Shown here piece after piece: positions 18,192-35,492 of a stretch of DNA of 35,492 bases. The notes beneath the pieces were generated by a model. It saw nothing but the letters and a program-made list of their open reading frames with translations. It made no database searches and was not told the DNA's origin. The position numbers and the translations under genes are program-made. The DNA is from an uncultured Clostridia bacterium. Its GTDB lineage: Bacteria > Bacillota > Clostridia > Christensenellales > Aristaeellaceae. Location of the stretch: positions 1 to 35,492 of the forward strand of contig CAMENN010000016.1 of the NCBI GenBank assembly GCA_945928315.1, in the 5' to 3' direction. The stretch's first letter is position 1, and each line of letters starts with the position of its first letter.

Positions 18192-18539
18192 GGGGGTGTA
18201 CTGGTTTCGACGGGATTGTGGGCGGTTGGGTAAGCGAGCCGTGGCCCCGGGCCACGTAAAAACCGGGAAATTAAAAATGAACTGACAATAACGATTATTG
18301 CCTCGCGGCCTGATTAGGCTGCGCGTCGGCCCAGCGATCCCGCTGCGCTGGATCCCGGCGTCAATTAGCGGGCCATGACCATGCCTAAGCTTTGCCGCAT
18401 GGCCACATCATGAAGCTACTGAACCCCTGAGCCCGTCTGTGGGCGCCTGGGAGAGGGAATGTCAAAACGCAGACTGCGCTCGGAGAAAGCCTGACAGTCG
18501 CTTTTTCGGACAGGAGTTCGATTCTCCTCACCTCCACCA
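18192..18539 (+). ncRNA. ssrA: tmRNA (ssrA)
   Basis: The tRNA-like ends are clear: GGGGGTG (18192-18198) pairs with CACCTCC (18529-18535) with one G.U pair, followed by A and an encoded CCA. The T arm is AGGAG-TTCGATT-CTCCT. The 5' part has the tmRNA-typical CTGGTTTCGACGGG. The tag frame best reads ACT GAC AAT AAC GAT TAT TGC CTC GCG GCC TGA (18281-18313), giving TDNNDYCLAA with the usual LAA end. Length is 348 nt, as expected. Confidence 0.96.
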
Positions 18540-33658: not shown

Positions 33659-35044
33659 TCAGTACGGCGCAGCAGAGCCGGTGCTCCCAAGCGTACAGCT
33701 CATGCCGGGCTGTCCATTGCCGCTCACCGCATTCGTCCTCCCATCGCGCGCCCAATCCCCGACGCCGCTGGTCACCATGTACACCCCCTGATTGCTGCTG
33801 CCGAACGCATAGCTGCCCCGATAGGTGAACATGCTGCCGGACGCCTGCAGGAAGATTTGCTGCAGCGGACACCAGGTTCCGCCGGATTGTGCGAGCACGC
33901 GGGCGTTTCGCAGCTCCATGCTGCGGACATCCCCCGCCGAGCCGGGATCAAAGTTTTCCAGGAACACCGCCACATTCCCGGTGAAGCATGCGTCGCTGTA
34001 GCCCAGGTCATAGCAGCAGAGCCGGGTCCATGCGCCGGTTTCGAGATCACAGATCCACTGCTCCACCTGCGTGTTCCCCGTTGCGGGCGATTCGACGCAG
34101 GCCATCAGCATGCGATACCAGCGGCCCGCCTCCCACGCATAGGGAACGATGGTGTGCGCGCCCGTTCCCTCGCCGCCGAAAGCATCCGTCCCTGCGCTCT
34201 GTTCGGGATAGACGCGCTGCGCGCGAATGGTCGTCCGCGTTCCGTCCGCGTCCGTGGCATACACATCCCAGAAAGACAGGATGCTCACATTTCCGTCTTT
34301 CGTGTCCTGCAATCCGGCATAGGCGTGCGCCGCATTCACCTCGATGCGGGCATAGCGCTGCTCAAGGCTGCGCATGTCGATTGACCAGCATCCCAGGCAG
34401 CAGTATGTGTCCTCCGCAAGATGGTCCGCCCTGAAGTCAATGGCGTACTGCGTAAAGCCCCCGATGTCCTTTGCCTGCAGCCATCCGCTAACATAGGGCG
34501 CGCGAGCGGCTTCCCCGGAGCGGGCCTGAATCTGCGCCGGCGCGGGCATGTCCAATACGCCGTTCCAATCCATAGCCGGTACGCCGCTGAGCGTTGTCGG
34601 TTCGCTTGTCAGCAGAAAAGCGGCGGAGTGCACCGGGGTGTCGTCGATCAGCCAGGTTGCCGTGTGCAGCCCCGCGTTCATGCAGGATTGCATCTTGTCA
34701 TGGTAGATGTGGGCGGACAGGGCTGCGCCGGGCGCAAGGTCAGAGACCTGCCACGACCACGCCTGTCCGTTGTCCACAATGACGCTGAAGCGCTCAACAG
34801 GCAGTGTGCTCTGACCGGCGTACGTCAGCTCGAGATAGAACGAATAGAATTCGTCGGCGCCCAGCGCGGACAGGTCCGCCCACTCCCCGCAGGTGCGCAC
34901 CTTCTTTTCCTGGCTGATGCTGTACACGGCAATCGCCGATTCCGCCCTGAACAGCGCCGGATCCACGGCATCGGCCCGCGCGGCGCAAAGGCCGAGCCAG
35001 ATGAGAACCGCCGCGAGAATACCCGTCTTTTTCAGAAAAGCCAT
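33659..35044 (-). CDS. Secreted DUF3472-like protein
   Basis: A 461-residue exported protein. The signal peptide spans residues 1 to about 26 (MAFLKKTGILAAVLIWLGLC...ARADA). Residues about 55-150 look like a CARDB-type beta-sandwich (FYLELTYAGQ... VIVDNG), and residues about 190-400 match my memory of DUF3472: GGFTQYAIDFRA, the FWDVYATDADG and GGEGTGAHTIVPYAWEAGRWY stretches. The function is unknown; relatives occur near glycan-degradation genes and may bind carbohydrate. ATG 35044 is chosen because GGGGAGAG lies 6 nt upstream; an earlier ATG at 35068 has no such site. Many cysteines (about 13) are unusual for a secreted clostridial protein. The tandem repeat array begins about 60 bp upstream. 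Confidence 0.8.
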   Translation of the reverse strand: MAFLKKTGILAAVLIWLGLCAARADAVDPALFRAESAIAVYSISQEKKVRTCGEWADLSALGADEFYSFYLELTYAGQSTLPVERFSVIVDNGQAWSWQVSDLAPGAALSAHIYHDKMQSCMNAGLHTATWLIDDTPVHSAAFLLTSEPTTLSGVPAMDWNGVLDMPAPAQIQARSGEAARAPYVSGWLQAKDIGGFTQYAIDFRADHLAEDTYCCLGCWSIDMRSLEQRYARIEVNAAHAYAGLQDTKDGNVSILSFWDVYATDADGTRTTIRAQRVYPEQSAGTDAFGGEGTGAHTIVPYAWEAGRWYRMLMACVESPATGNTQVEQWICDLETGAWTRLCCYDLGYSDACFTGNVAVFLENFDPGSAGDVRSMELRNARVLAQSGGTWCPLQQIFLQASGSMFTYRGSYAFGSSNQGVYMVTSGVGDWARDGRTNAVSGNGQPGMSCTLGSTGSAAPY

Positions 35045-35102
35045 ATCCGTCTCTCCCCAAATATGCACGCCATCCGGCGGTCACGTGCCCAACCGTATTT
35101 AC

Positions 35103-35252
35103 GCGGCCTGCTTCCGCCACCGGCGGCGGCCGCGCGAAAACCTCCATCGATGCGAACGCTGCACCTTCCCCGACTTCTTCGCTGCCTATGAAAAAAACTC
35201 GACGCTCTGTCGAGGCTTTTTGGTGCGCTTACCGGACTCGAACCGTTTTCCC
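35103..35252. repeat. Tandem array unit 1 (150 bp)
   Basis: The unit starts GCGGCCTGCTTCCGCC and contains, in order on the plus strand: the CCGCC/GGCGG hairpin region, CATCGATGCGAACGC, CTTCGCTGCCTATG, the hairpin CTCGAC-gctct-GTCGAG flanked by A7 and T5, and TGGTGCGCTTACCGG-ACTCGAACC, which on the minus strand reads as a tRNA T-arm-like segment ending in ACCA. A degraded piece of a preceding unit (CCAACCGTATTTAC) lies at 35089-35102. Confidence 0.85.
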
Positions 35253-35404
35253 GCGGCCTGCTTCCGCCACCGGCGGCGGCCGCGCGAAAACCTCCATCGA
35301 TGTGAACGCTGCACCTTCCCCGACTTCTTCGCTGCCTATGAAAAAAAACCTCGACGCTCTGTCGAGGCTTTTTGGTGCGCTTACCGGACCCGAACCGTTT
35401 TCCC
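35253..35404. repeat. Tandem array unit 2 (152 bp)
   Basis: Nearly identical to unit 1, with a 2-bp gain that extends the terminator-like hairpin to CCTCGAC/GTCGAGG. GTTTTC-c-CGCGGCC (35245-35258, at the unit junction) pairs with GGCCGCG-c-GAAAAC (35278-35291) in 13 of 14 positions, enclosing the CCGCC/GGCGG hairpin. A-runs and T-runs on the two sides make the second hairpin terminator-like on both strands. Confidence 0.85.
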
Positions 35405-35492
35405 GCGGCCTGCTTCCGCCACCGGCGGCGGCCTCATGAAAACCTCCATCGATGCGAACGCTGCACCTTCCCCGACTTCTTCGCTGCCTATG
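35405..35492. repeat. Tandem array unit 3, cut by the window end
   Basis: The first 88 bp match units 1 and 2 except that GGCCGCGCGAAAAC has become GGCCTCATGAAAAC, which breaks the long stem. The array continues beyond the window, so the copy number is unknown. Confidence 0.8.

Follow-up and report, generated by a model that had tools for sequence, protein, structure and literature searches.

Hairpin repeats carrying copies of RNA 3' ends behind tRNA, tmRNA and 5S rRNA genes in a genus of Clostridia

A class of repeats stands behind tRNA, tmRNA and 5S rRNA genes in one genus of Clostridia, and behind tRNA genes in other Clostridia; its layout is a terminator, an inverted RNA 3' strand (often short or decayed), a hairpin that we call the tip, a direct copy of the RNA 3' end, and a terminator. 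The array from which this class was recognized lies at the end of the window, i.e. the whole stretch of DNA analysed, which at 35492 bp is all of contig C16 of its genome (G000; 2.94 Mb in 189 contigs), and in it the 3' half of tRNA-Val(CAC), with a terminator, is copied in tandem, each copy having a hairpin, tip h, that replaces the variable region. We tentatively read the array, with a probability that we put a little below an even chance, as REP-like folded repeats bearing 3' ends copied from stable RNAs, by a mechanism that we infer.

The array itself is well delimited. TRF returns a single array at 35091-35492 (period 152, 2.7 copies, 95% match, score 730), and a BLAST search with unit 2 against the whole genome (E <= 0.001) gives three places, 35103-35252, 35253-35404 and 35405-35492, with the same starts as the three tandem units of about 150 bp in the original prediction; unit length is 150-152 bp. 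Since the contig stops at 35492, inside the array, the array is cut. Read on the minus strand, a complete unit consists of the anticodon loop and the 3' strand of the anticodon stem (TTC[AG]CATCGATGG), the hairpin (AGGTT-hairpin-AAC), the T-arm (GGTTCG[AG]GTCC), the 3' strand of the acceptor, ACCA, and a terminator-like hairpin with a T-run, which bears out the proposal that tRNA 3' ends and terminators are repeated here in tandem. On this strand the anticodon-loop pieces are at 35458-35446, 35306-35294 and 35156-35144, GGTTCG[AG]GTCCGGTAAGCGCACCA is at 35396-35373 and 35244-35221, and the hairpin with T-run is at 35367-35341 and 35215-35191.

The three units differ in how well they are preserved. 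In unit A, the outermost and the first on the minus strand, the anticodon-stem 3' strand, tip h and the start of the T-arm are matched at 35385..35453 (minus, 81.6 bits) by R2, a covariance model built from 18 h units of which unit A is one, with the anticodon loop running from 35458; the T-arm (GGTTCGGGTCC), acceptor 3' strand and ACCA follow at 35373..35396 (minus, scripted pattern position), and the hairpin with T-run at 35341..35367 (minus), where the scan finds a terminator-like site on the plus strand only (35349-35367). The same parts of unit B, also a member of the R2 model, are at 35233..35301 (minus; 85 bits, E 6.5e-16; anticodon loop TTCACAT from 35306), 35221..35244 (minus; T-arm GGTTCGAGTCC, acceptor 3' strand and ACCA, by scripted pattern position) and 35191..35215 (minus; terminator hairpin and T-run, terminator-like on both strands at 35198-35214), and its hairpin has a folding energy of -31.3 kcal/mol. 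Unit C (35083..35151, minus; R2, 59 bits, outside the model-building set) is the innermost and is decayed: the tip is kept, the T-arm is degenerate, and the acceptor, CCA and terminator were not seen in this unit, which is the nearest to the gene that follows the array on this strand, a gene with DUF3472 (33659..35044, minus; Pfam PF11958, 125 bits).

The units are not tRNAs and are probably not transcribed independently. A tRNA search of the array, suggested earlier as a check, returns neither a tRNA nor a complete cloverleaf (ARAGORN; Rfam at gathering); it had also been noticed, correctly, that no 5' tRNA half is present and that the spacing between T-stem and acceptor is one nucleotide short, a shortness that looks like decay because the acceptor strand of several relatives reads AAGCACC-ACCA. 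A pattern scan of the window units gives 3 terminator-like sites against a mean of 0.6 in shuffles and no sigma-70-like promoter, and with a terminator between units the suggestion of one stable small RNA per unit is left unsupported. An assembly artefact is ruled out, as units are internal to contigs in two relatives (G019, C92; G028, C11). The inverted arm of the class layout is not detectable in the window when compared with the full tRNA tail: the three spacers give p 0.65-0.88 (uncorrected), the inverted complement of the acceptor alone is equalled by 40 of 1000 shuffles, and the DNA fold of unit B pairs a short acceptor complement (z -3.2 for the whole stretch). Among the h-unit spacers of all genomes, only 9 of 22 reach p <= 0.017 (uncorrected), in G005, G009, G018, G019 and G028.

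The source of the copies is evident from the relatives; those that could be identified are metagenome-derived Clostridia, several of which come from the rectum of sheep, goat and water deer. An intact tRNA-Val(CAC) gene is found upstream on the same contig in 6 of the 10 genomes with strong h matches; the units stand directly behind it in G019, G021, G026 and G028, and cassettes intervene in G005 and G009. A 76-nt tRNA-Val(CAC) query has matches in 22 of 29 genus genomes and none in the window's assembly; as the contig ends inside the array, the missing gene probably falls in the gap that follows it. It had been argued that a complete tRNA gene just outside the window might account for the 3' halves as simple duplicates; the relatives suggest that such a gene is there, but the copies are not simple duplicates, since each carries the hairpin. 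The pattern CACATCGATGGAGGTT occurs at 18 places in 10 of 29 genus genomes, several in tandem or near contig ends, and R2 gives 22 matches of at least 59 bits in 10 genomes, 18 of the 22 being the model-building sequences. At E <= 0.001, R2 matches 15 genomes among 100 relatives, all of the window's own genus; full-length h matches away from tRNA-Val are weaker ones only, in 5S-type and other palindromes, and the exact 29-base window pattern is found in 0 stretches of named genomes.

Within the tRNA copy, the GC-rich hairpin forms a structured module of its own. There is hardly any variation at its ends, GTT..AAC, and its outer stem varies on both sides; in the alignment 94.4% of cells are paired as against 76.4% in shuffles, and the covariation score is 0.397 against 0.097 shuffled and at most 0.079 slid, the tested structure being derived from the same alignment, whose rows are related. 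Pairs changed on both sides number 8, a less telling figure that 87 of 500 shuffles reach. From the pattern of substitutions, tip h looks like a module under structural constraint. A 25-bp core of the tip is dispersed in several genomes. Loci L010, L013, L014, L015 and L016 hold a dispersed palindromic repeat of about 98 bp (GGGACCGAAGCCTGCCGCCGCC..) with the inner hairpin of the window tip, which at L015 lies behind a tRNA-Ala gene, its terminator and an inverted T-arm; at L263, L252, L265 and L269 a window-type tip sits in another palindrome (CCAAAGAGGTT..AACGGAAAGCCCTTTGG or similar) with no recognized RNA gene.

Units of the same class with a second tip, E2, came to light when the DNA behind the tRNAs of G000 and G021 was searched for copies of each tRNA's 3' end; several direct scores in this search come from neighbouring tRNAs in clusters. 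That such copies stand behind every tRNA is ruled out, as most of the tested tRNAs of these two genomes show none; the first units were those of tRNA-Val(GAC) in the window's genome and of tRNA-Asn and tRNA-Val(GAC) in G021. Their layout is a terminator, an inverted tRNA 3' strand, a tip of about 80 nt, and a direct tRNA 3' end, mostly with CCA and often followed by another terminator. The covariation score of E2 is 0.473 against 0.119 shuffled and at most 0.047 slid, again for a structure taken from the alignment tested, with related rows. The E2 model, R1, matches 22 of 100 relatives, which fall in 8 of 69 genera, and a single genome has up to 39 copies; in a class sample of 291 genomes it matches 6, with E up to 1e-6.

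Overall, E2 recurs behind ten other tRNA kinds and tmRNA. We examined 71 E2 sites, a chosen sample that comprises all matches of G000, G003, G007, G009, G013, G014 and G021, together with 10 of 11 from G005, 12 of 23 from G017, 4 of 6 from G028, 3 of 5 from G011, 3 of 39 from G010, 1 of 39 from G019, 1 of 4 from G008 and 1 from G030 (76 matches, minus two duplicates in L212 and three cut by locus ends). An intact tRNA gene (Trp, Val-GAC, Ser-CGA, Asn, Ala-GGC, Leu-CAG or Pro-CGG) lies within 700 nt upstream of 37 of these sites and an intact tmRNA gene upstream of 4; by a reading of the arms by eye, the others divide into 16 flanked by a tRNA or tmRNA 3' end with no intact gene in the stretch scanned, and 14 in other palindromes (GAGGGTTCGG..AATCCCTC). 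The arms belong to the gene in front of them: at the 37 sites behind intact tRNAs, the site's own tRNA is the best match of the direct arm in 37/37 and of the inverted arm in 35/37, and all 7 E2 matches of G000, G013, G014 and G021 are at tRNA 3' ends. Arm complementarity exceeds the best shuffle in only 26 of the 71 sites, and many inverted arms are therefore short or decayed. In other genera and families, 6 of 16 E2 matches follow a tRNA at 51-64 nt with arms that match by eye (Ala twice, Ser-GGA twice, Leu-CAA, Lys-CTT); the remaining 10 have no such tRNA before them. The window has a tmRNA gene of its own (18192-18539, plus; RF00023, 170 bits), with no repeat unit behind it by eye, unlike those of G005, G007 and G009. 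The tag GHDHA* given for it by ARAGORN looks wrong, another frame reading ..TDNNDYCLAA*; tags in relatives are DNSEYAFAA or DNNNYCLAA.

The window-type tip h is also found in tandem copies of the 5S rRNA 3' end, on which R2 gives partial or weaker matches (32-41 bits). A pattern search, with 15 loci of which two cover one place, yields 12 such units on 7 contigs of G003, G010, G017 and G026, up to three in tandem. A native-like 5S end is found upstream on five of the 7 contigs, and Rfam confirms the 5S at L253 (53.9 bits), L264 (61.2) and L267 (38.1; gathering 38); at L266 there are three exact copies of 30 nt from the 5S end with its trailer. One account of the window, a neutral tandem duplication of the tRNA-Val 3' end and terminator after a chance hairpin insertion, with no mechanism shared among loci, would fit units that are 95% alike and an innermost one that decays. 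We consider it very improbable: already disfavoured, it has to contend with recurrence at ten tRNA kinds, tmRNA and 5S, with tips that covary.

The tRNA-Val(CAC) locus appears to be shaped by small cassettes inserting into the tRNA as well. In G009 an intact tRNA-Val(CAC) and a partial copy that starts at the anticodon arm are separated by about 2.1 kb, in which lies a single large ORF (Listeria-Bacteroides repeat); this segment is a cassette inside tRNA-Val(CAC), with the 3' half, its terminator and the hairpin units displaced downstream. The 100 nt that follow the partial tRNA of G009 share 91% identity with the 100 nt behind the intact tRNA of G019; for those behind the intact tRNA of G009 the figure is 60%, which equals the shuffle maximum. 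To this extent the locus is an integration target, as had been suggested for the array, in the relative G009. In RGIG6282 (G003) the tRNA-Val is followed directly by a terminator and tRNA-Ala, with no units; from these layouts the locus can be assigned three states, namely without units, with units (as in G019), and with cassette and units. Partial tRNA-Val copies flank segments in G005, G009 and G021, those of G005 and G021 measuring about 0.6-3.1 kb; genes between such copies, in these and other genomes, encode a PD-(D/E)XK family protein and a DUF1269 protein, and AbiEii occurs twice in or beside the array of G004. Pfam gave no match for 4 of 10 proteins tested, and a motif screen of ORFs picked no integrase between the tRNA-Val(CAC) copies of G005, G009 and G021.

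Further features of these loci were seen in passing. At L076 (G004:C158) and L077 (G002:C156), partial tRNA-Val(CAC) copies are separated by segments with other genes, and TCGATGTGAACG-like repeats near the copies at L076 are possible integrase binding sites of a cassette system. A shared motif, GTTATGTAC/T.., was noticed by eye where segments with unrelated genes end, some 20-30 nt ahead of the displaced copy of tRNA-Val (L071, 5200-5290; L073, 8430-8490; L082, minus, about 517-560; L072, 500-560). A 102-bp tandem repeat (L007, 756-1145) runs in frame in the ORF just upstream of tRNA-Val(CAC) in G021.

These layouts bring forward a different origin, in which the array would be made of displaced or duplicated att half-sites of elements that use tyrosine recombinases and enter at the anticodon loop (Val-CAC) or the T loop (the E2 kinds); in a variant, arms and tip may fold together into a single-strand att site like those of integron cassettes. 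The copies start at the anticodon loop and the T loop, two of the three crossover subsites in tRNAs (anticodon loop, T loop and junction) that PMC4383910 names. The displaced cassette of G009, the state without units in RGIG6282, the partial copies around segments in three genomes and tmRNA as a target all agree with this, as do the Phage_integrase genes that neighbour units at Trp and Val(GAC), which account for 5 of 9 ORFs tested, the majority of these ORFs having been chosen with a motif screen. Islands in tRNA and tmRNA genes, as treated in the same source (Islander; PMC4383910), have a regenerated tRNA and a displaced 3' fragment, which is also what the tRNA-Val(CAC) of G009 shows, but the window units differ from these islands in having no cargo between them and a hairpin within each tRNA fragment. 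We think an att-site origin unlikely. Against it stand the displaced tRNA-Val copies next to cassettes, which have no tip, and the same tip type and tandem layout in the 5S 3'-end repeats; 5S genes are not known as classical integrase targets. Integron attC arrays also combine folded, covarying hairpins with small gene cassettes in a row, and differ from the present repeats, whose arms are tRNA 3' ends. No integron integrase was found above the curated cut-off in the 29 genus genomes (0/29), which weighs against the att-site origin too, and an integron is ruled out: each of the 14 control genomes likewise has matches below the cut-off, which tyrosine recombinases in general would be expected to give.

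The nearest known layout is that of the tyrT locus of E. coli, with which we compared the array because a weak RtT match in relatives pointed there (24.2 bits at L163, gathering 45; absent from a later search of 14 unit loci that included the same region). The tyrT repeats have so far been known as a curiosity that stands alone in E. coli. At tyrV/tyrT, K-12 carries 3.1 copies of a repeat of 178 bp, in which the last 19 nt of tRNA-Tyr with CCA recur three times directly and the 10-nt GGGGAAGGAT three times inverted, before a structured stretch; Rfam finds RtT (RF00391, rttR) there three times. Like the window units, these are tandem units with a direct tRNA 3' end and CCA, as units A and B have it; the overall layout is that of the E2 units, with a direct copy that by eye starts at the same T-loop position, whereas the window copy starts in the anticodon loop. 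The tips differ: R1 is not significant on tyrT (best E 0.81). RF00391 (gathering 45 bits) has no match in the window and in 0 of 100 relatives, with the E. coli control positive. With different tips and no RtT among the relatives, we take the window array to have the layout of tyrT and not to be an RtT member. Our literature search found no description of these Clostridia repeats.

An RNA-level function has been proposed for E. coli rtT, and tRNA, tmRNA and rRNA genes are in general strongly transcribed. A function of this kind, in which read-through RNA from the tRNA, tmRNA or rRNA promoter would be cut into small structured RNAs, or the units would be serial terminators or processing decoys that insulate the next gene, is in keeping with the tyrT precedent, with the position of the units behind such genes, with tips that covary, and with the hairpin and T-run that end both complete window units. 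We regard it as quite improbable, given terminators that separate units which have no sigma-70-like promoter, a presence that differs between genomes (10/29, with absence in RGIG6282), and the many tips outside RNA genes.

The reading as REP-like repeats is the one that we prefer, with the lack of a sigma-70-like promoter, the terminators between units and the dispersed tip copies in favour of a DNA role. REP/BIME-type palindromic repeats are likewise short, covarying, dispersed hairpins, a likeness that extends to the 25-bp core common to the window tip; they differ from the tips described here, which are embedded in copies of stable-RNA 3' ends. The units would be REP-like, non-autonomous folded DNA repeats whose tips act as hairpins at the DNA level, inserted or copied into hairpin loops; strand switching or recombination at two hairpins, the terminator and the RNA stem-loop, would have supplied the host-derived arms, taken from strongly transcribed genes for stable RNAs at their 3' ends, and tandem duplication would later have enlarged the arrays. 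Where small gene cassettes enter tRNA-Val(CAC), directed by the tRNA, they may also push older 3' halves and units outward. Several points tell against REP-like repeats: the inverted arm, not detectable in the window against the full tRNA tail and within reach of shuffles at many h spacers and E2 sites; the 8 doubly changed pairs of tip h, a number that 87 of 500 shuffles reach; the integrases encoded next to some units, which suit an att-site origin equally; and the conservation of structure, which would also fit an RNA function. A bolder form, possible but doubtful, is that these folded DNA repeats are mobile, capture stable-RNA 3' ends (tRNA, tmRNA, 5S) as inverted and direct copies around a conserved tip, and move or amplify via the single-stranded fold, with E. 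coli tyrT as another branch that has a different tip.

Our findings turn the tyrT oddity of a single locus into a comparative problem with a test set, i.e. ten tRNA kinds, tmRNA and 5S in Clostridia, and raise the question whether the hairpins act in DNA, in recombination and mobility, or in RNA, in processing and termination. The repeats may further explain why some assemblies break behind such genes.
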